The notes beneath the pieces were generated by a model. It saw only the letters and a list, made by a program, of their open reading frames with translations. It was not told where the DNA came from and made no database searches. From assembly GCA_001803565.1 (NCBI GenBank), contig MHDQ01000008.1, positions 1-13,091 on the forward strand: a stretch of DNA of 13,091 bases, given 5' to 3'. The position numbers and the translations under genes were made by a program. Positions 40-12,578 of the stretch are shown piece by piece (positions within the stretch are counted from its first letter, which is position 1; each line of letters begins with the position of its first letter). Source of the DNA: Nitrospinae bacterium RIFCSPLOWO2_12_FULL_45_22. GTDB lineage: Bacteria > 2-12-FULL-45-22.

Positions 40-2634
40 TTATTTTATAATGTTTACCAGCACGCTGTCATAATACAACCGGTCAAAATCCGGGGTGCCG
101 TTCATAGTCATATCAACTCCGAAATAGAAGGTATATGTACCTTGAGGTAGTCCTGTCAGCAAGAGTTCAACAGGAGTAGTCAGATCAATTAAAGGGCCCT
201 GATATGTGACAGAAAAGCCAGGTAGCCAGCCTCCCTGTATCTCGTAGTATTTCAGTCCCGACGGTGTATCCATTACTAACCACCAATCAGCATTTTCACC
301 TGCATTGCCCCGGGCATCAAGGCTAACCTTAACTGAAAGGACATCATTTGTGCCTATGGTACTTGGATCATCTGAGCCATTTGCACTTATAGCAGGAACA
401 GGATTATCAATGCCTGTGCCTCCTCCGTATCTAAAGACTCCGCCTCCTTGGGTAGCAACATAGATTACCCGATCGTTTATGGCAATGTCTTTGACTGCAC
501 GTACCATCAATCCCGACATCTTCGAATCTGGAAATGGTGACCAGGTATTCCCCTTATTCAGGGATTGATAAACACCAGAATATAGATCTCCCGCATAGAT
601 AATATCAGTATTTTTAGGATCAATGACCAGGGCAGAAATATATGGATTACTAGAATTGAAACCGCTGTTGTGCGGACCTGTCCAGGATGTACCACCGTCC
701 TTACTTATCCATATCCCCCCAAACAATTCACCGGCAATCAGATAATCTGGTTGTTGTGGCTGAATAACCAGGGCTTCGATATGCCTGGTACCAAGGCTAT
801 CCAGATGTACCCAGCTTATTGCCCCATTTGTGGTTTTATAGACACCATTTGTCGTAGCTGCATAAACGATGGTGGAATTATTAGGATCAACCACTAATCC
901 GTTCACATTGTGGCCATCAATAATAGAGGCCATCGGGGAAAATGTAGCACCAGCATCATTAGATTTATAGATGACTGTTCCGATAGAAGGAGAAGAAATA
1001 AAGGTAGAGCGATCCTTGGCCAGGCCCGCATAAGCCACATCAGGGGCGGAAGGAGCAAATATCATGGTTTTAAATCCCTGGCGCCTATTTGGATCGCTGG
1101 GGTTAGTTTCTGGATGCCTGAATACCGTAATAAAATCTTTTCCCCCATTAGCACTGCGTAAAATAACGCCTTGATGCTCATCAGCTATCAAAACCAGGTT
1201 GGAGTTCGTGGGCTTAACAGCAACCGAATACCATTCGGCGAAATTTGCATCGCCGTTACCAATGCCGATCCAATCTCCTCCATAATTAGAGCTTACAAAG
1301 GGACCGCTCCTCCCGATTGCATAAACGGTGGAGGAATTACTGGCAGGGATACAGAGGTCGTGAATTTCCGCTCCAGAGTAACCCTTACTCCAATCTTTCC
1401 AGGTTTCCGACCCATCTGTGGAACGGAAAACACCGCCACCATAATTATTGGCATATAAGACGTCAGAGTTGACAGGATCAACAATTATATCAATTGGGAC
1501 CCCGGCTCTAACCCCTGGCGGCCCCCAGTCAGCATCTCCAGGCTTAGAAAAACTGCTCCAGGTTAACCCTCCATTGTTACTTCGATAGAATGCCCTTGCG
1601 CTTCCAGCGTAAACGATATTTGGATTCGAGGGGCTGAAATTCACCGTTGTCATGATATCGTTTGTGATTACCTTGGTCCAGAAGGCACCTCCATCGGCTG
1701 TTTTAAATAATCCACTAACAGGGTTACCCGTGTACTGTCCCGAGCATGCATTATTCCCTGTGGCGGCAAAGAGAATCTGCGGGTTAGTCGGATGCATTCT
1801 CAGGCTTCCAACATACAGATCAGTAAATCCATTATTAATCGGGGTCCAGGTTCCCCCCCCATCAGTGCTTTTTAAAACACCTACACCACCAGGGAGACTA
1901 TTTGTACAGTCAGAGTTATATGCCTCTCGATCAAAGATACCGGTGGATAGGTATAGAATATCGGGGTTGGTGGGGTTGATTATTAGATATCTGGCCAGGT
2001 TGTCTCCTTGCCAGATCAGGCTCCAGGATTCTCCACCATCTGTCGTTTTATATACCCGTCCTTTTACCCGGTTGAATTCCCATCCATTTACATCCGTTGG
2101 TATTTCGGCCTGAGCATAAACTACATTTGAGTTATCTTGCTGGATAGTAAATCCCCGGAAAACTATCCCGATGTCGTCACCTAGTGTAATACCATTGGTT
2201 TTTAATGTCCATGTGGTCCCACCGTCTGTACTTTTGAAAACCCCAAAAGCTGATCCCTCTCCATTCGTTCCTGCCCAAATAACATCATGATTATTAGGGT
2301 CTATGGTCAAGCTGAAAATATTGACAGCATCTCCTGAGGGGCCACCCTTTATAGAGATACCAGAATTGGCTTGATACCAGGTCTGTCCGGCGTTGATGCT
2401 CTTGGCTACCCCTGCATAATTGTCTGTAACATACATGATACTTTTGTTAGCAGGGTTTATACGAACATCATATCCCAACCCTCCTAATGGTCCACCAGTA
2501 CTCACCCATGAAGTCTGGGAAGCAGTTTCATCTGTACATAAAAATAGTAATAGAGCAATAAAGGACAAAAGAAGTAGTAACCTTCTCAGCTTTAATATAT
2601 TCTTTTTATGCCTTAAGCCCCTTGTCTGATTCAT
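40..2634 (-). CDS. Exported multi-BNR-repeat beta-propeller protein (VPS10/sialidase-like fold)
   Basis: This 864-residue protein is predicted to be secreted or surface-exposed. It starts with a basic stretch (RHKKNILKLRR) and a leucine-rich hydrophobic segment at about residues 18-33, which reads as a signal peptide. The body has about thirteen BNR/Asp-box-like turns, such as STDGGTTW, TTDGGESW, STDGGGTW, SNNGGLTW and SKDGGTSW. They are spaced 45-70 residues apart and alternate with 'DP.N..I.YA' strands, as in VPS10/sortilin-like and photosystem-assembly-like propellers. No sialidase catalytic set was recognised, so binding or scaffolding is more likely than glycoside hydrolysis (inference). 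After the propeller comes a separate C-terminal domain of about 120 residues (from about 745) with ADWWLVMDTPSG and GTYTFYFGVDMTMNG. The start is supported by AAGAGGT about 8 nt upstream. The gene begins 5 bp after the cytochrome stop codon, so the two are probably co-translated. Confidence 0.85.
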   Translation of the reverse strand: MNQTRGLRHKKNILKLRRLLLLLSFIALLLFLCTDETASQTSWVSTGGPLGGLGYDVRINPANKSIMYVTDNYAGVAKSINAGQTWYQANSGISIKGGPSGDAVNIFSLTIDPNNHDVIWAGTNGEGSAFGVFKSTDGGTTWTLKTNGITLGDDIGIVFRGFTIQQDNSNVVYAQAEIPTDVNGWEFNRVKGRVYKTTDGGESWSLIWQGDNLARYLIINPTNPDILYLSTGIFDREAYNSDCTNSLPGGVGVLKSTDGGGTWTPINNGFTDLYVGSLRMHPTNPQILFAATGNNACSGQYTGNPVSGLFKTADGGAFWTKVITNDIMTTVNFSPSNPNIVYAGSARAFYRSNNGGLTWSSFSKPGDADWGPPGVRAGVPIDIIVDPVNSDVLYANNYGGGVFRSTDGSETWKDWSKGYSGAEIHDLCIPASNSSTVYAIGRSGPFVSSNYGGDWIGIGNGDANFAEWYSVAVKPTNSNLVLIADEHQGVILRSANGGKDFITVFRHPETNPSDPNRRQGFKTMIFAPSAPDVAYAGLAKDRSTFISSPSIGTVIYKSNDAGATFSPMASIIDGHNVNGLVVDPNNSTIVYAATTNGVYKTTNGAISWVHLDSLGTRHIEALVIQPQQPDYLIAGELFGGIWISKDGGTSWTGPHNSGFNSSNPYISALVIDPKNTDIIYAGDLYSGVYQSLNKGNTWSPFPDSKMSGLMVRAVKDIAINDRVIYVATQGGGVFRYGGGTGIDNPVPAISANGSDDPSTIGTNDVLSVKVSLDARGNAGENADWWLVMDTPSGLKYYEIQGGWLPGFSVTYQGPLIDLTTPVELLLTGLPQGTYTFYFGVDMTMNGTPDFDRLYYDSVLVNIIK

Positions 2635-2639
2635 CCTGA

Positions 2640-4274
2640 TTACCTCTTGATTATTAAGTTTTTTCGAGCAATTTCTATATCGGGTATTTTTAAGCCCTTA
2701 GCGTCTAACAAATTTTTATACACCCTGCGATAGAGCAATCTGGTAGTTATGTGGAGTGATCTAGATAGGGTTTTGGGAACATGAAACTGATAGTTTGAAA
2801 CATCAGACTGATTGGCAGGAATCCTATCATCAGATTCTACAAGCGTGGGACGCCAATGGGGGGCTGGATATTCATTTTGAAAGTGCCGCTTCCTTCGCCC
2901 ATCAGGATAGGGCAATAGATCTTTCAACACCTTAGCAAATCCTTTGCCAGGCAAGCCTGCATAGTTCCCCTCTTCTACCGTTCCAACTCCACCCCATACC
3001 GGCACCCGTTCACCTTTGTTCATCAATAAACTGCTCCCATCTCCATCAACAACATCCACCAGCAGCAACATATTACGCATGGGATTCCCTGTGGGGTAAT
3101 GATGGCCTGCTTTAACATTTTTAACCGTTACACATACCTTCAATGTATCCCCTGCCAAATTGGCCTGGGTGATAAGGTCAATCGCCTCCATCATAAAGAC
3201 CCTATCTCTGACACCAAAAAACAGATGAGAAGGAATTGTCACCGGATCACGCAAAACCCCGCCTTCTTTTTCTAAAGCAAAGCGGGTCATTTTGCCATCG
3301 GGTTTCATATGGCAATCCTGGCAATGAATATTCTCTTTGGCATAAGAACTTTCAGCCCACTCCTGAAACTCTGAATAAGTCAAGACATTCCAAAATTTCC
3401 CGTTGTGACAAGGTGCGCAGTACTGGCTATTTTTATATAAAGGGTGGTAACTATCATCACCCGGAAAGACATCATCATACGGCCCATAAAAAGTCTGATG
3501 TCCATCGGCTGGCCGTTGTAATTTAATGGATAGAATTCCAGGATATCCGCCCGTCTGGTCAATATTAACACCGTTAATCTTATGACAAATATCGCAAAAA
3601 ATCCCTTCTTTTACAACTCCTTGGGCCTCATTGGGATCAGCACTAAATGGGTTATCTAGAGCTAAGGCCGGCACATGACAGGTAGTACAATTCCCATTGG
3701 AATTTGGAAAGTCCAGCTTATAGCCTAGCCCAATACCTTTTCCCCCGTAAGCATCAGTTCCATTAAAAAAGGCCAAAAATAGGGGATTTATTGCAGAACC
3801 GGCGTGAGCGCTGTTTCTCCATTGCTCCGTAAGCACCGGGTGGCATACCTGGCAGGGTTTAACTTCTACTGTGCTGTCAATTGGCCTAGGCATTTGATCA
3901 TGTGAGGGTGGAAGCCATTTATATTTCTGGTTATCACTCAACGGGATAGATATTAATATTATACGATACTCTTTGTTTTCCCTGGAAACAGGTTGCCCGC
4001 CATTATAAAAGCCAGACTTCCAGGCAGTGATATATTTTGAACTGATAACCTCATCAATAACTATGTTAAAATGACCTTTTTGATCAGTTAAAGTTAAAAA
4101 TGAAGTTCCCTGAAGGCGAACAACTGCGTTGCTAATCGGCTGCCCTTTCACATCAACCACAATACCTGAAAACTGGCTTGCAAAAACTACACTTTGTAAA
4201 AAGAATAGCTGGAAAAGAGATAAAGGCAAGTAAGCTTTTCTACTATACTTTCCCACTTCTCCATAAAGGAACAT
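2640..4274 (-). CDS. Exported five-heme cytochrome c with N-terminal carboxypeptidase-regulatory-like domain
   Basis: This 544-residue protein (ATG at 4274) is likely to act in the periplasm or at the cell surface in electron transfer. The N-terminus has a charged segment (KYSRK), a hydrophobic core and a probable cleavage site after VFA. Residues about 35-110 resemble a carboxypeptidase-regulatory/TonB-plug-like beta-sandwich (SGIVVDVKGQPISNAVV...D.KGHF). Five CxxCH heme sites follow at about residues 141, 196, 227, 286 and 318 (CQVCH, CTTCH, CDICH, CAPCH, CQDCH). The motif WRNSAHAGSAINPLF and a later AGHHYPTGNP are common in multiheme cytochromes, where such His residues can be heme ligands. 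An in-frame TTG at 4304 would add 10 residues, but its GGAG lies only 2 nt away. The ATG at 4274 has AAAGG about 10 nt upstream and leaves a normal signal peptide. The redox partner and acceptor cannot be told from sequence. Confidence 0.85.
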   Translation of the reverse strand: MFLYGEVGKYSRKAYLPLSLFQLFFLQSVVFASQFSGIVVDVKGQPISNAVVRLQGTSFLTLTDQKGHFNIVIDEVISSKYITAWKSGFYNGGQPVSRENKEYRIILISIPLSDNQKYKWLPPSHDQMPRPIDSTVEVKPCQVCHPVLTEQWRNSAHAGSAINPLFLAFFNGTDAYGGKGIGLGYKLDFPNSNGNCTTCHVPALALDNPFSADPNEAQGVVKEGIFCDICHKINGVNIDQTGGYPGILSIKLQRPADGHQTFYGPYDDVFPGDDSYHPLYKNSQYCAPCHNGKFWNVLTYSEFQEWAESSYAKENIHCQDCHMKPDGKMTRFALEKEGGVLRDPVTIPSHLFFGVRDRVFMMEAIDLITQANLAGDTLKVCVTVKNVKAGHHYPTGNPMRNMLLLVDVVDGDGSSLLMNKGERVPVWGGVGTVEEGNYAGLPGKGFAKVLKDLLPYPDGRRKRHFQNEYPAPHWRPTLVESDDRIPANQSDVSNYQFHVPKTLSRSLHITTRLLYRRVYKNLLDAKGLKIPDIEIARKNLIIKR

Positions 4275-4330
4275 GTAGCAAAAGCCTTTGTAAGGACATA
4301 GCAATACTCCGTCCCTACTTTTGGGATTCC

Positions 4331-4392: not shown

Positions 4393-6834
4393 TTATGCCA
4401 GGGCCTGTTCAGTGCGGGCAATGATCTGGTCTTGGACCTCTCTTTCCATATCCACGTAGTAAGCGCTAAAGCCTGCTACCCGCACTATTAGATCAGCATA
4501 GTTTTCTGGATGTTGCTGGGCGTCCAAAAAGATCTGGCGATCGAGGATATTGAACTGGATATGATGAATACCCATATTTACCCAGGTACGCAGATAGCTA
4601 AGAAAGGTATCCTGGTGCTCCGGGCTAAGGTACTGGGGTAGAATCTTCTGATTCAGCAGATGAGTAAAGGTATGGGTATGGTCTATCCTGGCCACTGACT
4701 GCAGTACCGCGGTAGGCCCCCGCTTATCGGTACCTATAGCCGGTGATACCGTGCCATCATTAAACAGACTGCGATCTTTGCGGCCATCTGGTGTAGCTCC
4801 AGTAAGACCACTGTAGGAATAGTAACTAGCACCACCCGTCCCATCCTCGAGGAACGGGCCGCCCCAAATATTCTTAAAGCCCCTGATGACCCCGGTAGTC
4901 CGCAGGTAGAGATCAGCGGCAAAGCGATCCACATAATCGTCATCATTACCAAATTTTGGGGCATTGAGGCACATCTGGCGCAAGGCATCTTTACCTTCCC
5001 AATTGGTTTTCATGGCCTCCAGCAGCTCTGCCATCGCGACCTTCTTGTCTTCAAATACCAGCTTCTTGAGCGCTACCAGCGAATTAACCACTGTAACCTG
5101 CCCTACGGGCTGGATAATGGTATTGGGGAAGTATTTGTAATGCCGACAGTCCTGCCCCCGCTCCAGGCAGCCATCCAACAGGGATGATAAGAATGGTTGC
5201 GGTAGATACTCTCCATCCAACACATCTACCAGGTTATAGATGGCAACCAATTTCTCGGTAAAGAACCGCACCTGGTTAAGATGGGCCCCGATGACATCTT
5301 CGATAGAAGAAAAGCTCCTTGGGTCTGGGGTAGGATAGCCGATCTGTTTGCCACTAAACTTATCAATGCCCTGGTTCAAGGCATATTCCAGACACTTGGG
5401 CAAGGCAAACATGCCGCCCAGGGCCCGCATACCCATGGCCTTACCCGGTATTATCCAGCGCATACATCCCTCCGTGGAATAGTCCCGGGCATCCTCCAGG
5501 GGTATACCCAGGTTCATCAGGTAAGGGATCATCATCTCATCATTGAAGAAGGAAAAGAGCCCCGCCATCTTTCTCAAGGTATCGGTAATGGCCACCAGAA
5601 ATTCCTTCGGAGAATTGCGATGGAGGCGGATAGCAACGGCGGGTTGGGTGAGCCTTACGGACTTGCTGGCATCCAGGGCAATATAAGTCATTTCATTAGT
5701 AGCATCCTCGCCCGTAAGGGTCTGGCCACCAATAGTCAATACCCGGGCGGTTATCAACCCGCCACCACCAGCCCCCTGCACCGGGGGGATCAACTGCCCC
5801 TCTTCATTCATCTTGAGCCAGAGGTGTTCGACTAACTCCTGGGCCTCTTCACGACTCGACCGGCCAGCTTCTCTATCTTTCCGATAGAAGGGAAACATGA
5901 TCTGGTCAAAGCGGTCCCCTAAGCCCGGGGTTTGTAAGTCCAGGATCCGGGTAATAAGGGTGATAAACCAATAGCATTGCAGGGCCTCATATAATCCCCT
6001 GGGCGGATTAGCTGGCACCCAGCTACATACCTTAGCTATTTCTTCTAATTCCTTTTTCCTATCTTCATCCTCTTCTTGCTTAGCCAGCTCCAGGGCCTTT
6101 TCGGCAAACCTCTGACCAAAGCGGATAGCCGCTTCACACGCTATTATGGTGGCTTCCAGGAATCGCTTCCGGGAGAGATATTCTTTGGCATTGAGATAGC
6201 TAGCCGGGTCAGTTCCAAGCTCTGCCAGCCGTTCTTTTGCCTCGGCTATTATCCCATTCAACCCCACCTGGAAGAGCTTATGATAATTAGGCACACCAGT
6301 ACGCCCCCCATGGATCCAGAGAAATACCCCTTGATTATTATAAAACCAATAGGGCTTGATCTGGTCAGGCAGCAGCTCCCGCTCCATGCCATGTACAGCC
6401 TTATTTTGCCAATACTTATGGATGGTGTGCAGTTCCCTCCGCTCATCTTCGCTCAGCAGCTCCTTATAGTCAGCATCTATGGCCTTATCTAACCAACGCC
6501 AGAATAGTTCTGGGTAAGTAATGAGGGAGCTGGGTTTACTGGCGATATTACCGACAATCCGTTCATGGGGTAAGATATATATAGTCATGTTATCTAAGAG
6601 CTTGGCTATGGCCCTGGCCCGGCGTAAGACCATAGGCTCCCCTTCGGTCTCCTGATAACTCTGAGTAATCAATCGGGCCCGCTCAATACAGAGCTTGATA
6701 CCAGCCCGATAAGGCATGCGACTCTCCTTTTTTTCCTGGGCCAGTATACGGCCCAGGCCCCGCATGCCCTTGCTCTGATAAATGGGTTCCTGCCGTAATT
6801 CTTTTATGGACTTCTTTTCTGCTACTACTGCCAT
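4393..6834 (-). CDS. Glycyl radical enzyme of the pyruvate formate-lyase superfamily, substrate unknown
   Basis: The protein has 813 residues, the usual length for PFL-like glycyl radical enzymes. The PFL domain covers roughly residues 20-680 and the glycine-radical domain the rest. The radical loop is RVAGFSAYYV with Gly788 as the predicted radical site, followed by the usual 'Q..II.RTEQA' tail. The thiyl cysteine is Cys457 in STEGCMRWIIPG. Most dehydratase, decarboxylase and C-S/C-N lyase members read GCxE here, with a Glu acting as acid/base. This protein has Arg459 instead. It also lacks the Cys-Cys pair of true PFL and the Leu-Cys of benzylsuccinate synthase. The reaction therefore cannot be named. 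The enzyme should be cytoplasmic, oxygen-sensitive and dependent on a radical-SAM activase, which is not in the window. The start is supported by GGGAGGGG just upstream. Two palindromes lie in the promoter region. Confidence 0.9.
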   Translation of the reverse strand: MAVVAEKKSIKELRQEPIYQSKGMRGLGRILAQEKKESRMPYRAGIKLCIERARLITQSYQETEGEPMVLRRARAIAKLLDNMTIYILPHERIVGNIASKPSSLITYPELFWRWLDKAIDADYKELLSEDERRELHTIHKYWQNKAVHGMERELLPDQIKPYWFYNNQGVFLWIHGGRTGVPNYHKLFQVGLNGIIAEAKERLAELGTDPASYLNAKEYLSRKRFLEATIIACEAAIRFGQRFAEKALELAKQEEDEDRKKELEEIAKVCSWVPANPPRGLYEALQCYWFITLITRILDLQTPGLGDRFDQIMFPFYRKDREAGRSSREEAQELVEHLWLKMNEEGQLIPPVQGAGGGGLITARVLTIGGQTLTGEDATNEMTYIALDASKSVRLTQPAVAIRLHRNSPKEFLVAITDTLRKMAGLFSFFNDEMMIPYLMNLGIPLEDARDYSTEGCMRWIIPGKAMGMRALGGMFALPKCLEYALNQGIDKFSGKQIGYPTPDPRSFSSIEDVIGAHLNQVRFFTEKLVAIYNLVDVLDGEYLPQPFLSSLLDGCLERGQDCRHYKYFPNTIIQPVGQVTVVNSLVALKKLVFEDKKVAMAELLEAMKTNWEGKDALRQMCLNAPKFGNDDDYVDRFAADLYLRTTGVIRGFKNIWGGPFLEDGTGGASYYSYSGLTGATPDGRKDRSLFNDGTVSPAIGTDKRGPTAVLQSVARIDHTHTFTHLLNQKILPQYLSPEHQDTFLSYLRTWVNMGIHHIQFNILDRQIFLDAQQHPENYADLIVRVAGFSAYYVDMEREVQDQIIARTEQALA

Positions 6835-7156: not shown

Positions 7157-7378
7157 TCAATTTTTTATTTTCTTTTCCAGGGCTTCCCAGCACTCCCAGC
7201 GGCAATCATCTGATCCAAACCAACATATCCTGGGCCGATGACAATAAATATGACTGAGTTTGCTTATCTCCTTACCTGTCGCTGGCTGATGGGTCACCCA
7301 ACCACAAAGAATCTCCGTTTCTCCTACTTCTTCCGGGCAAATATGGGTTTCTAATTTAAATTGCAGTATCTGCTCCAT
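7157..7378 (-). CDS. Small cysteine-rich hypothetical protein
   Basis: This 73-residue product is not recognised. It has six cysteines (14, 25, 46, 52, 59 and 63). The last four form a C-x5-C-x6-C-x3-C pattern rich in Trp, Arg and His, so metal binding is possible but unproven. There is no signal peptide or membrane segment. The ATG at 7378 is preferred because AAAGGGGT sits about 8 nt upstream; an in-frame ATG at 7405 would add nine residues but has no such site. The gene lies about 100 bp after bioF and before the repeat-filled gap leading to the glycyl radical enzyme. It could therefore be read with the biotin genes, though nothing links it to biotin by function. Confidence 0.55.
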   Translation of the reverse strand: MEQILQFKLETHICPEEVGETEILCGWVTHQPATGKEISKLSHIYCHRPRICWFGSDDCRWECWEALEKKIKN

Positions 7379-7481
7379 ATCTTTACCCCTTTGCTTTTTT
7401 AGCATTAAATAAAATGGAAATTCCTATGCAATCAAGTTAAGTTTATCACCTTGACGCAGTTAGGGCTATCTTTATTCTCAC

Positions 7482-8666
7482 TTATATTATTCTTAGACAC
7501 TGGCCGACATTTTTCAGGGCTAGCAGGGCCCTTTCGAGCTGCGCAGAGGTATGGGTAGCCATGAGGCTTATCCGCAGGCGGCATTTGCCTTCTGGCACTG
7601 TAGGGGGTCGGATAGCGGGGGTATATACCCCTTGTTCCAGCAAGCCCTGGGCAAAGGCGCTAGTCTTCTCTAGCTCGCCTACTAAGATAGGGATGATATG
7701 GCCCTGGCTATCCATCAGATCAAAGCCTAGCTCTAGTAATGCCTGGCGGAAATAATTTACCCGCGCCCATAGTTGTTGTCGGAGCTGGGGTTGGCTTTCT
7801 ATCAATGCTAAAGCAGCTAAAGAGCCGGCCAGGATACTGGGTGGTGGCGCGGTAGAATAGATAAAACTGCGGGCCTTGTGCCGCAAATAATCCACCAACC
7901 TTTCTGTCCCCACCACGTACCCACCTAAGTTCCCCAGGGTCTTGCTCAGGGTTCCTATCTGGAGGGGTATTTTATCCTCCAGACCAAAATGCTCCACCGT
8001 ACCCCGGCCTTCCTTGCCTAACACGCCAAAACCATGGGCATCATCAATAAGGACCAGGGCCCCATACTCTTCAGCTAATTTACAGATTCCAGGTAATGGC
8101 GCCAGGTCTCCATCCATACTGAAGACCCCTTCAGTAATGATCCAGTGCCGGGCGTATTGCTGGCTTTGGGAGAGGATCTGTTTGAGGTGCTCTAAGTCTT
8201 TGTGACGATAGATGGCCCGGGCCGCACTACTGAGGCGGCAGGCATCAATAATACTGGCATGGTTCAACTGGTCACTGATGATTAAGTCCTGGGGGCCTTG
8301 GGCCAGGGAAGTAATAAGGCCCAGGTTAGCCATATAGCCGGTAGAGAATAGGATAGCTGCAGGGTATCCCTTGAACCGGGCCAGCTTCCTCTCTAGCTCT
8401 TCATGTAGGGCCAGGTTACCCGAGATTAAACGAGAAGCCCCAGTACCAGTACCATAGTGGGCCAGGGCCTCCTGCGCTGCCTTGATAACATGGGAATGGG
8501 CATGGAGCCCCAGGTAGCTATTGGAAGAAAGGAGGACTATTTCCTGGCCATGCCAGAAGGCTGTAGGACCCGGTATGCCGTCCAGACTTTTTAAAGAACG
8601 GGACAGGCCCTTTTGCGCTATCTCTTCCAAAGCCTGTCCCAGGTAATCCTCCAGCCAGAAGCTCAT
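7482..8666 (-). CDS. bioF: 8-amino-7-oxononanoate synthase (BioF), PLP-dependent
   Basis: BioF condenses a pimeloyl thioester with L-alanine, releasing CO2, to give 8-amino-7-oxononanoate (KAPA). The 394-residue protein is an alpha-oxoamine synthase of normal length. Landmarks are the N-terminal SNSYLGLHAH, YGTGTGASRLISGN, the Asp/His pair in LIDDAHGFGVLG, and the PLP-binding Lys at about residue 242 in GTLSKTLGNLGGYVVG. The family also includes 2-amino-3-ketobutyrate CoA ligase, but coupling to bioU and proximity to bioB favour BioF. The chosen ATG at 8666 overlaps the bioU stop as ATGA, which implies translational coupling. An upstream in-frame start at 8732 would add 22 residues lying wholly inside bioU and not resembling the family N-terminus. 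No strong Shine-Dalgarno site precedes the start, as is common for coupled genes. Confidence 0.92.
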   Translation of the reverse strand: MSFWLEDYLGQALEEIAQKGLSRSLKSLDGIPGPTAFWHGQEIVLLSSNSYLGLHAHSHVIKAAQEALAHYGTGTGASRLISGNLALHEELERKLARFKGYPAAILFSTGYMANLGLITSLAQGPQDLIISDQLNHASIIDACRLSSAARAIYRHKDLEHLKQILSQSQQYARHWIITEGVFSMDGDLAPLPGICKLAEEYGALVLIDDAHGFGVLGKEGRGTVEHFGLEDKIPLQIGTLSKTLGNLGGYVVGTERLVDYLRHKARSFIYSTAPPPSILAGSLAALALIESQPQLRQQLWARVNYFRQALLELGFDLMDSQGHIIPILVGELEKTSAFAQGLLEQGVYTPAIRPPTVPEGKCRLRISLMATHTSAQLERALLALKNVGQCLRII

Positions 8667-9655
8667 CGTACTATCATCGGCATAAATTCGGTAGAACCAT
8701 AGACACCATAGATAGCCTTGTCTCGCAGCCACCAGGCCCGCTTGAGATAACCCAGGGCGGGGCCTACCACATTATCGGCCATAGTGGTCTCATCACCTAA
8801 AACGAAGCGATGCGTGCTCTTCTGGCCACTCAAGGTTATACCGGTTAGGGTCATCGTGGTAGTGACCGGTTTCTTACTAGATCGGGTATCCATGATACCA
8901 CCCACTATGACCTTATTCCGGCTATCTACGACCCCTACTCTCTCCAGGAGTAAATCATCGGCGTGCTCCATCTCCTGAAATTCTAGCCTCCCCTCCCGGG
9001 CATCCAGTAATGCCTCTACTTCTTGATCGGTCAGGGCTTTAGCTGTTTCTACAGTATAACCGGGCAGATGGGCAATATCTTCCCGAATAGTAGCTTTATA
9101 ATCCTGCCAGCTAGAGACCCCTACCCCCCACCATATCTTTACCTCCTCTACTTGCTGGAAGGACTGGGCAGCTAATACCGCCGCGGCTGTTAATAGGCCC
9201 GGCGTCGCACCAGCACCAGTAATGTAGGTACTCCTGACTTCTTTCAGTCCTCGGTCTAGTTGGAACATCTGCTCCATAGCCCTGGTCCTTTTCAAGGCAT
9301 CAGTAAACACCCCGCTATAGCCGGCATCAATAAAGCGCTCTATTATTTTGGCGATAAAGTCATTAGGTAGATTAGGGAGGGCCACAAAGATCCCATCAAT
9401 AGACTTTCCCAGGGCAATAATCTCACCAATAGAGTCCGGGCAATGCACCCCACCCGAAAACAGATCAGCTACTGAACCCTGCGGTTTTATCTGGTAAATC
9501 TCCTGGCCATCCAACCCTTTTTCGCTATAGGCATAGCCCCCTTGATCACAGATAGCGACTAACCTCATCTCCCTTTTTAAGCTGATAAAACGGGCGGCTG
9601 CCTTACCCAGCCCGCCTGCCCCCAGGATAGCTATCCGGCATGGTCTTTTTTCCAT
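8663..9655 (-). CDS. bioU: BioU-like enzyme (saccharopine-dehydrogenase-like), probable KAPA to DAPA-carbamate step of biotin synthesis
   Basis: The 330-residue protein has an N-terminal Rossmann dinucleotide site (RIAILGAGGLGK, residues 7-18) and a saccharopine-dehydrogenase-like layout. Cyanobacterial BioU (Synechocystis) is a suicide enzyme. The epsilon-amino group of its Lys124 becomes the new amine of KAPA, and a carboxylated diaminopelargonate is made for BioD. Here a lysine falls at residue 122, in FTDALKRTRAM, after the first domain. I take it as the counterpart, without an alignment. Length, fold, lysine position and location between bioB and bioF, with no bioA in the window, all fit BioU. 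An alternative is an unrelated NAD(P)-dependent dehydrogenase that happens to be coupled to bioF. The ATG at 9655 is chosen over 9691 because AAAGGAGG lies 5 nt upstream. The 3' end overlaps bioF by ATGA. Confidence 0.78.
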   Translation of the reverse strand: MEKRPCRIAILGAGGLGKAAARFISLKREMRLVAICDQGGYAYSEKGLDGQEIYQIKPQGSVADLFSGGVHCPDSIGEIIALGKSIDGIFVALPNLPNDFIAKIIERFIDAGYSGVFTDALKRTRAMEQMFQLDRGLKEVRSTYITGAGATPGLLTAAAVLAAQSFQQVEEVKIWWGVGVSSWQDYKATIREDIAHLPGYTVETAKALTDQEVEALLDAREGRLEFQEMEHADDLLLERVGVVDSRNKVIVGGIMDTRSSKKPVTTTMTLTGITLSGQKSTHRFVLGDETTMADNVVGPALGYLKRAWWLRDKAIYGVYGSTEFMPMIVR

Positions 9656-9667
9656 CTCTTCCTCCTT
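9656..9667 (-). promoter_or_regulatory. Strong ribosome-binding site fixing the bioU start
   Basis: Read on the minus strand, AAAGGAGGAAGAG precedes the ATG at 9655. This is a near-perfect Shine-Dalgarno site 5 nt from the start. It rules against the upstream in-frame ATG at 9691. Confidence 0.8.
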
Positions 9668-9680
9668 TCTATAGCCGACG

Positions 9681-9930
9681 TCATTGGTCACTAGTGTAAC
9701 GTTACATTAAAATGTTTCCAATGCGTAACCAAGTCTTTGCCACGAAGTCACAAAGACACAAAATTTCTAATTCATTGTTTTTAAAGGAAAAAATAACTCT
9801 TTGTGCCTTAGTGCCTTTGTGGCTAATACAAGTTTTTAATGTATATATTTTAATGAAACGTTCTACTAGTCATTGGTCAATAGCAAATGCAGAGCAACAA
9901 GGATTTAACCTAATGACTAATGACCAGTGA
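9681..9930. repeat. 250-bp nested inverted-repeat (MITE-like) element between bioB and bioU
   Basis: Three sets of nested arms pair across this gap: 9681-9694 with 9917-9930 (12 of 14), 9698-9713 with 9847-9862 (15 of 16), and 9739-9762 with 9800-9823 (20 of 24). The central arm is made of CACGAAG/CACAAAG-type units. An extra direct copy of CATTGGTCA lies at 9871-9879. No coding sequence is evident. The right end abuts the bioB stop codon (TAG at 9933-9931). If transcribed through, the whole element could fold into one long hairpin. The layout resembles a non-autonomous mobile element, but no clear target duplication is seen. Confidence 0.65.
9689..9728 (-). promoter_or_regulatory. Possible bioU-bioF promoter inside the repeat element, over a 12-bp palindrome
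   Basis: On the minus strand, TTGGAA and TACACT are separated by 17 nt, each matching 4 of 6 consensus bases. The -10 overlaps the perfect palindrome TGTAACGTTACA (9695-9706). This could let bioUF be transcribed independently of bioB, but the matches are weak. Confidence 0.25.
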
Positions 9931-10920
9931 CTAATAACGGCCACTATAAGTTTCTAAGCCTAAATCTTTTATCATCTGCAAATCTTCGGCTGCATCCCTC
10001 CCGGGTGTAGTAAGATACCCACCGATAATTAAGCCATTGGCACCAGCTAAAATACCCAGGGATTGCAAATCCCGCAGATTTCTCTCCCTTCCACCAGCCA
10101 GCTTAATAATGCTATTTGGTAAAATCAGGCGAAAGATAGCAATAGTCTTTATTATCTCCCAGGGTGGTAGGGGGGGGGTATGCTCAAGGGGTGTGCCGGG
10201 TCTAGGGTTAAGGATATTAATAGTAGCACAATCTACTTCCAGCTCCTTCAAGGCAAAGGCTAGTTCCAGCCGCTGTTCCCATGTTTCACCCAGGCCTATT
10301 ATCCCCCCACAGCAAGCCTCTAAGCCCGCTTCCTGTACCGACCTTATTGTGTCCCAGCGTTCCTGATAAGTATGGGTAGAGCAAATATTAGGAAAGAAGC
10401 TTTCTGCGGTCTCCAGGTTGTGGTTATAGCGGCTAATCCCTACCCGGTGCAGCTCTATCATATATTCCCTGGGGAGGTGTCCTAAAGAGCAGTCCAGCCT
10501 TAGCCCGGTAGTTCTCTTTAACTCTTCCAGGGTCTCTAATATCATCCCAAATTCTGTCTTGCTTACCCTTTTGCCACTGGTGACGAGGCAGAAATGGTCT
10601 GCCCCGCGCTGCTCCGCTTCCCTGGCTGCCTGTATTATTATCGAAGGGTCTAATAGAGGATAGGAAGGAGCCGAGGAATTATAGTGGATAGACTGGGCAC
10701 AAAAGGCACAGTCTTCCTGACATTGCCCTGACCTGGCATTGATCAAAGAACAAAAATCCACCTTATCGCCTCTTTGCCTCTCCCGCACTTCACAAGCCAC
10801 AGCCACCAAAGCCAGGATATCATTCTTTCGGTTTAGGTCGGTTAAAACTCGGACCTCAGACAGGCTTATACCCTTACCTTCCAGAACCTTCTCTCCCAAT
10901 GTCTTAATCGCAGCTAGCAT
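9931..10920 (-). CDS. bioB: Biotin synthase (BioB), radical SAM sulfur-insertion enzyme
   Basis: BioB converts dethiobiotin to biotin by radical insertion of sulfur. The 329-residue protein has normal family length. The radical-SAM cluster motif CQEDCAFC (Cys67, Cys71, Cys74) follows FCSLINARSG. The [2Fe-2S] ligands are likely Cys111 (HFCLVTSG), Cys144 (LDCSLG), Cys203 (ACCGGIIGLGE) and Arg278 (AGGRE). The C-terminal GANGLIIGGYLTTPGR also fits the family. The ATG at 10920 lacks a Shine-Dalgarno site and is preceded after one codon by an in-frame TAG. Translation is therefore weak, leaderless-like, or starts slightly downstream. A run of nine C residues (10170-10178, minus-strand sense) encodes a Pro-rich spot. 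The stop codon lies at the edge of the inverted-repeat element that separates bioB from bioU. Confidence 0.96.
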   Translation of the reverse strand: MLAAIKTLGEKVLEGKGISLSEVRVLTDLNRKNDILALVAVACEVRERQRGDKVDFCSLINARSGQCQEDCAFCAQSIHYNSSAPSYPLLDPSIIIQAAREAEQRGADHFCLVTSGKRVSKTEFGMILETLEELKRTTGLRLDCSLGHLPREYMIELHRVGISRYNHNLETAESFFPNICSTHTYQERWDTIRSVQEAGLEACCGGIIGLGETWEQRLELAFALKELEVDCATINILNPRPGTPLEHTPPLPPWEIIKTIAIFRLILPNSIIKLAGGRERNLRDLQSLGILAGANGLIIGGYLTTPGRDAAEDLQMIKDLGLETYSGRY

Positions 10921-11046: not shown

Positions 11047-11507
11047 GTGTAAAAAGAGGAGATTTTGAGATTATGGAGATGTGGAGATAATCCATCTATT
11101 CAGCCTCAATCCTTCGGAAGTCTGCCATCTCTTTTGCAAAATTGACAAGGATGGCCAATTTAAGTCCGGTGGCTTTCAGGTAGGAACGAACCTGAGCATA
11201 ATGTGCTTTGCTCAATTCTTCCACGGTTTTCAGCTCTACGATTACCCTATCTTCCACCACAAGATCAAGTCTGTGCCGACCTACTTCCTCATCTCTGTAA
11301 TAAATGATTACTTCCTTCTCCGTCTCCACTCTTAGAGACTGACTTCTTAATTCGATTAGTAACGTTTTGCGGTAAATGCTTTCTAAAAAGCCTGGACCAA
11401 GAGTTTGGTGAACTTTGATGATCGCTTGTATTATTGTCTCGGTAAGCTTATCTTGTTGATATTCCATAACTTTATCTCCAGCATCTCCTTATCGCCTTAT
11501 TTTACAC
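11047..11507. mobile_element. Putative GxxExxY cassette bounded by GTGTAAAA/TTTTACAC inverted repeats
   Basis: The left end starts GTGTAAAAAGAGGAG and continues with iterated GGAGAT units (11062-11090). The right end has TTATCTCCAGCATCTCC (about 11472-11488) and finishes TTATTTTACAC (11497-11507). Reverse-complementing the left end gives ATCTCC iterations ending in TTTTTACAC, so the two ends match with one internal gap. The 461-bp unit contains only the GxxExxY gene. No transposase and no obvious target duplication are present, so mobility is inferred from structure alone. Confidence 0.45.
11096..11467 (-). CDS. GxxExxY family protein (PD-(D/E)XK nuclease superfamily)
   Basis: The 123-residue protein has the name-giving motif as GFLESIY (Gly26, Glu29, Tyr32) in HQTLGPGFLESIYRKTL. 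A nuclease-like core follows: Asp68 in RHRLDLVVEDR and Glu78-x-Lys80 in VIVELKTVEE. This is the usual D...ExK arrangement of the PD-(D/E)XK fold and the length is typical. The role of the family is not established; DNA or nucleic-acid cleavage is an inference from the fold. It has no functional tie to the biotin genes on either side. Its Shine-Dalgarno site, GGAGAT about 8 nt before the ATG, lies inside the right-hand inverted repeat, so the repeat and gene behave as one cassette. It interrupts birA-bioB. Confidence 0.88.
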   Translation of the reverse strand: MEYQQDKLTETIIQAIIKVHQTLGPGFLESIYRKTLLIELRSQSLRVETEKEVIIYYRDEEVGRHRLDLVVEDRVIVELKTVEELSKAHYAQVRSYLKATGLKLAILVNFAKEMADFRRIEAE

Positions 11508-11594: not shown

Positions 11595-12578
11595 TTACGC
11601 TTTGTTCATCTGCAGAGAGACATCCCCAGTATAGATTTTTATCTGTTGGCCGGAGGCTAACCGAAGGATCAGAGCCCCATGCTCATCTACATCTTCAGCC
11701 ATGCCTTCTAAGGTTCCCTGTTCAGAGACGACTCGTACCTCTTTATTCAGGGTCATCAATGAATTACGCCACTCTTTTACGATAAGAAGCCCCTTACCCG
11801 CTTGTAGCTCCTTATACTCCTTCTCCATCTCTTGTAGGAGACCCACCAGGAATTTTAGCCGGGAGATTTCCTGCCCTAGCTCTAAATAAATACTGGTGGC
11901 ACTATAGGCAATTTCAGGATATATAGTAGGATCGAAATTCATATTAACCCCTATACCTACGACTACATAGACCACCTGATCTTGCTCGGCCGAAAATTCT
12001 GTAAGTATACCACCAACCTTATTCCCGCGGATCATTATGTCATTAGGCCATTTTATTGAAGATTCCAACGGGGTTAGGGCCTCGATGGTTTTCACTACAG
12101 ATAGAGAGGCTATCATAGTAATATAGGACACCTGGATAGGCGAGAGATGGGGGCGGAGGATAAGGGATATCAATATGTTCTTATTGGCAGGCGAGAGCCA
12201 CTCCCGGCCCATCCTACCCCGGCCCTGGGTCTGCTCTTCTGCAATGACCAACGTACCTTCTCTGGCCCCTTGACTGGCCAACTCCTTGGCCAGCACATTA
12301 GTGGAAGTAGTAACCGGATAATAATAGACCTCCTGGCCAATGAAATCTGTCTTTAATTCCCTCTTGATAAAGACGGGGAGTAATTTATCCGGGCAACTGA
12401 TCAGGCAATAACCCAGGTTGGGCTGCGACTCTATATGAAAACCCTGCCCCCGTAATGTCTTTATCTTCTTCCAGACGGCTGTGCGGGAAACTTTTAACCT
12501 CTCGGCTATAGCCTCTCCTGAGATAAACCCTTTTTCTCTGATAAGCATATCTAACAAAACCATATCATCCCCCACCAT
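11595..12578 (-). CDS. birA: Bifunctional biotin-protein ligase and biotin operon repressor (BirA)
   Basis: BirA makes biotinyl-AMP and transfers biotin to carboxylase carrier domains. The repressor type also binds DNA. The 327-residue protein keeps both halves. A winged helix-turn-helix lies at about residues 6-60 (ISGEAIAERLKVSRTAVWKKIKTL) and the ligase domain follows, with GRGRMGR (119-125), KWPND (176-180) and GNKVGGILTE. A C-terminal SH3-like domain closes the protein. Length matches the bifunctional class, so it is probably a regulator. AAGGAG lies 4 nt before the ATG at 12578; an in-frame ATG at 12563 would remove five residues. The promoter is at 12641-12614, overlapping a BirA-operator-like site. 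The last codons and stop lie in a repeated GCTTTACGC unit. Confidence 0.95.
   Translation of the reverse strand: MVGDDMVLLDMLIREKGFISGEAIAERLKVSRTAVWKKIKTLRGQGFHIESQPNLGYCLISCPDKLLPVFIKRELKTDFIGQEVYYYPVTTSTNVLAKELASQGAREGTLVIAEEQTQGRGRMGREWLSPANKNILISLILRPHLSPIQVSYITMIASLSVVKTIEALTPLESSIKWPNDIMIRGNKVGGILTEFSAEQDQVVYVVVGIGVNMNFDPTIYPEIAYSATSIYLELGQEISRLKFLVGLLQEMEKEYKELQAGKGLLIVKEWRNSLMTLNKEVRVVSEQGTLEGMAEDVDEHGALILRLASGQQIKIYTGDVSLQMNKA

Follow-up and report, generated by a model that had tools for sequence, protein, structure and literature searches.

The 13,091-nucleotide stretch of contig MHDQ01000008.1 from Nitrospinae bacterium RIFCSPLOWO2_12_FULL_45_22 (hereafter the window) raises the question of whether BioU, an enzyme spent in a single turnover, stands in for BioA in an anaerobe outside the cyanobacteria. 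A bioB-bioU-bioF cluster with bioU and bioF coupled by an ATGA overlap had been proposed in a sequence-only reading, and this arrangement was confirmed by profile matches and by the overlap itself (Table 1), the E-values excluding a chance origin of the bioB, bioU and bioF matches. Two short multicopy repeats part bioB from bioU, so that tight coupling is limited to bioU and bioF; several further copies or part-copies of the MITE-like one occur in the host genome. Scans of the window returned no Rfam family, no BirA-box-like site (simple consensus), and promoter and terminator signals at chance level only. The same reading saw in the ATGA coupling a means of matching the dose of BioU to that of BioF. 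This dosage argument is weak, since an overlap of this type was found in just 2/25 other bioU-bioF pairs, and in 3/7 pairs with a bioD partner; the overlap is sporadic and not a conserved dosing device.

Table 1. Features of the window and coordinates of the compared loci.
Feature	Position	Strand or place	Description
Sortilin/BNR-repeat protein	40-2634		large; adjoins the multihaem cytochrome gene
Multihaem cytochrome	2640-4304	(-)	carboxypeptidase-regulatory-like domain
Glycyl radical enzyme	4393-6834	(-)	PFL2/dehydratase family; scores under the cut-offs of all NCBIfam models matched
ORF after bioF	7157-7405	(-)	82 residues, cysteine-containing; no NCBIfam/Pfam matches
bioF	7482-8666	(-)	394 aa; TIGR00858 456 bits, cut-off 426
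ATGA	8663-8666		common to bioU stop and bioF start
bioU	8663-9655	(-)	330 aa, predicted BioA replacement; NF047886 E=1.7e-121
MITE-like multicopy repeat	9700-9870	bioB-bioU spacer	about 170 bp, imperfect inverted ends with CTAG
Second short multicopy repeat	9867-9930	bioB-bioU spacer	
bioB	9931-10920	(-)	biotin synthase, 329 aa; TIGR00433 385.7 bits, cut-off 225
GxxExxY/PDDEXK_3 protein	11096-11467	(-)	between birA and bioB
birA	11595-12578	(-)	biotin protein ligase, helix-turn-helix domain at N-terminus
Abditibacterium GxxExxY gene	L043:5562-5945		just upstream of bioU; 34% identical to the 11096-11467(-) protein
DPANN biotin cluster	L025:2269-7607		bioB, bioF (opposite strand), bioU, bioD
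DPANN biotin cluster	L026:2216-7401		as above
DPANN biotin cluster	L030:2458-7686		as above
DPANN biotin cluster	L034:2475-7637		as above

The gene between bioB and bioF had been called a BioU, and the call is borne out by its sequence and, as set out below, by its fold. The product aligns end to end with the characterised BioU Slr0355 of Synechocystis sp. PCC 6803 (Sakaki et al. 2020), at 51% identity (E=5.6e-103; ORF residues 14-342 against Slr0355 17-343), and its match to NF047886 (AmOxnSyBioU) spans the whole model (1-323/323). The score of this match, 405 bits, lies below the strict curated cut-off of 600, which is an annotation threshold and no biological defining feature of BioU. This cut-off appears to have been set for cyanobacterial sequences; NF047886 scores elsewhere were 463 in genome G013 and 629 in genome G048, the ribosomal proteins of which group with Picosynechococcus. 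As the sequence-only reading had anticipated, Lys122 aligns with Lys124, the suicide residue of Slr0355, at the position where the K124A mutant chain (PDB 6itd) has A, and His231 aligns with His233. Both residues are invariant in the 86/86 aligned homologues.

The predicted structure of the window protein (mean pLDDT 93.3, from a 34-sequence alignment) returned the five BioU entries 6ir4, 6itd, 6k36, 6k37 and 6k38 as its five best PDB matches, with TM scores of 0.92-0.94 (0.93-0.94 for 6itd, 6k36 and 6k38) and Z scores of 43-45. The top structural match, 6k38 (Z 45.3), is the H233A mutant of Slr0355 crystallised with the DAPA conjugate, in which the mutated residue is the equivalent of His231. 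These comparisons bear on the possibility that the protein is another member of the saccharopine/meso-DAP/amine dehydrogenase superfamily, placed in a biotin cluster by chance. Such enzymes have a Rossmann-type fold in common with it and reach Z scores of about 16-21, but their identity to it is 10-17%, against 50-51% for BioU, no fold other than BioU exceeds Z 20.9, and the lysine, the histidine and the gene order are all conserved; this possibility is therefore left with next to no probability, and the protein is closer to BioU than to any other dehydrogenase family.

Taken as a whole, the locus is very probably a cluster of biotin genes with BioU standing in for BioA and Lys122 acting as single-use amino donor, the chemistry being read across from Slr0355. 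In the latter, Lys124 forms a conjugate with KAPA using NAD(P)H, the conjugate is carboxylated, and DAPA-carbamate is released with NAD(P)+, the lysine amine being lost (PMC12915131, PMC7133116). By analogy, 8-amino-7-oxononanoate (KAPA) made by BioF would condense with the epsilon-amine of Lys122, and the imine would be reduced by NAD(P)H; the conjugate would then be carboxylated and oxidised by NAD(P)+, freeing DAPA-carbamate and leaving a dead allysine at Lys122, so that one BioU molecule would be consumed per product. Ring closure by a BioD, a protein not found in the recovered genome, and sulfur insertion by BioB would complete the pathway. Closure of the ureido ring after the BioU step is the established role of BioD. 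No biochemistry on any BioU from the clade of the window was found in the literature. A catalytic relative of BioU, in which Lys122 would form the imine while an outside donor supplied the amino group and the enzyme was not consumed, would accord with a fold common to multiple-turnover amine and amino-acid dehydrogenases, and has a precedent in THI4, for which suicide and catalytic versions of one enzyme are described (PMC8454699). Such a form is nevertheless quite unlikely, as Lys122 and His231 do not vary across the family, the structure is far nearer to BioU than to any dehydrogenase, and the sequence gives no sign of a differing active site.

Replacement of BioA by BioU can also be judged from the gene content of the host and of other genomes. 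The recovered host genome comprises 3.67 Mb in 321 contigs and is 85% complete. It was earlier noted that the window lacks bioA, and this holds both for the window and, over the cut-off, for the recovered genome, in which none of the five class-III aminotransferases (Aminotran_3) reaches the BioA cut-off; these are ArgD, a PRK05769-type protein, one encoded beside NeuB/cytidylyltransferase (CTP-transferase) genes, a lysine 6-transaminase and HemL. At 85% completeness, bioA could lie in the missing part, in which case BioU would be redundant with a true BioA. Against this, BioA over the cut-off was found in 0/32 BioU genomes, compared with 35/95 sampled genomes without BioU, some of which may not make biotin (Fisher p 6e-6, uncorrected for relatedness); co-occurrence of BioU and BioA would thus be exceptional, which makes a redundant BioU highly improbable. 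BioD exceeded its cut-off in 28/32 BioU genomes, and the two counts together are what would be expected of a BioU that takes the place of BioA and passes its product to BioD. A whole-genome search had been suggested for both genes, and bioD, like bioA, was not detected in the recovered 85%-complete genome (two models); a weak match on contig C97 was rejected as the cobyric acid synthase CobQ. This non-detection is probably due to genome incompleteness. BioD was also undetected in the BioU genomes of Desantisbacteria CG2_30_40_21, Poribacteria KatS3mg115 and Sumerlaeaceae SKW119 (L013 (G098), L046 (G120), L051 (G123)), and it is conceivable but unlikely that in the host lineage, and perhaps in these three, DAPA-carbamate is closed to dethiobiotin by a factor other than BioD. 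Misbinning of the contig was also considered and rejected: the repeats of the bioB-bioU spacer are present in several other contigs of the genome and tetranucleotide correlations are r 0.87-0.95, which together make a binning error unlikely.

The host had been described as a non-cyanobacterial anaerobe, and the first part of this description is right: a ribosomal-protein tree places the genome, with its order-mate G001, beside Schekmanbacteria (SH-aLRT 94). The second part is unsupported for this host. The glycyl radical enzyme and the multihaem cytochrome encoded in the window fit an anaerobic host. However, contig C278, which resembles the window in tetranucleotide composition, carries a caa3-type cytochrome c oxidase operon, with genes for SCO1, COX1 (511 bits), COX3 and a COX2-cytochrome c fusion, together with a UbiA-family gene, so that the host probably either is facultative or can at any rate respire O2. 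The broader proposal that an anaerobe relies on BioU is thus unsupported for this host but is probably valid elsewhere, since a heme-copper oxidase (COX1 match) was undetected in 19/32 BioU genomes, many of them incomplete; BioU probably operates in some anaerobes, though not demonstrably in this one.

A scan of species genomes yielded at least 557 stretches encoding BioU relatives, of which the best 80 were kept. Among these 80 are the bacterial phyla Omnitrophota, Desantisbacteria, Schekmanbacteria, Armatimonadota, Abditibacteriota, Sumerlaeota, Poribacteria, Coatesbacteria and cyanobacteria, and the archaea Woesearchaeota/Nanoarchaeota and Methanoperedens; phage and E. coli collections gave no BioU match. 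This breadth outside the cyanobacteria and the undetected bioD had both been unforeseen in the sequence-only reading. Cyanobacterial sequences make up one clade of the BioU tree (SH-aLRT 100). The window protein is placed in an unresolved group that also includes Desantisbacteria, Schekmanbacteria, part of the Omnitrophota and the DPANN archaea. The branching of the DPANN BioU among bacteria points to lateral transfer. In four DPANN genomes (Woesearchaeota/Nanoarchaeota), bioB, bioF, bioU and bioD lie together (Table 1); biotin clusters are unexpected in these lineages, which are often presumed auxotrophic.

Many non-cyanobacterial bioU genes adjoin bioB, bioF or bioD, whereas those of the cyanobacterial loci examined do not. 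The window BioU accordingly resembles Slr0355 in whole-length sequence, in fold, in its equivalents of Lys124 and His233 and in its predicted replacement of BioA, and differs from it in being clustered with bioB and bioF, in its non-cyanobacterial host and in having an activity that is predicted only. The closest relatives among the matches listed are those of Desantisbacteria, Schekmanbacteria and related lineages (L013-L024; 61-71% identical), most of which share the unresolved clade of the window protein; their neighbourhoods vary, with bioU either beside bioD or away from other bio genes. The order bioB-bioU-bioF-bioD occurs in haloarchaea, Omnitrophota, Coatesbacteria and Methanoperedens. 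In haloarchaea, such operons are carried on plasmids, including Natronococcus occultus plasmid 2 and Haloferax larsenii pHl5678-1; they share the bioB-bioU-bioF order of the window and encode a BioU 42-45% identical to that of the window, but include the bioD that is absent from the window cluster. The haloarchaeal plasmid bioU genes of L009, L010, L164 and L165, each within such an operon, are annotated as 'transcriptional regulator' or 'hypothetical protein'.

BioU has been presented in the literature as a cyanobacterial enzyme (PMC12915131, PMC7133116), and the scans reported here extend it to many bacterial candidate phyla and to archaea. The window protein is ordinary in kind, a BioU from a little-known lineage, and points to an under-annotated but widely distributed single-turnover route. 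Given the labels attached to the haloarchaeal plasmid genes, the genomes concerned may be scored as biotin-incomplete although their pathway is complete. All aligned homologues retain the donor lysine, including those from genomes in which no heme-copper oxidase was detected, so that, unlike for THI4, there is no sign of a catalytic BioU. This makes the affordability of single-use enzymes in slow-growing, energy-limited microbes directly testable.
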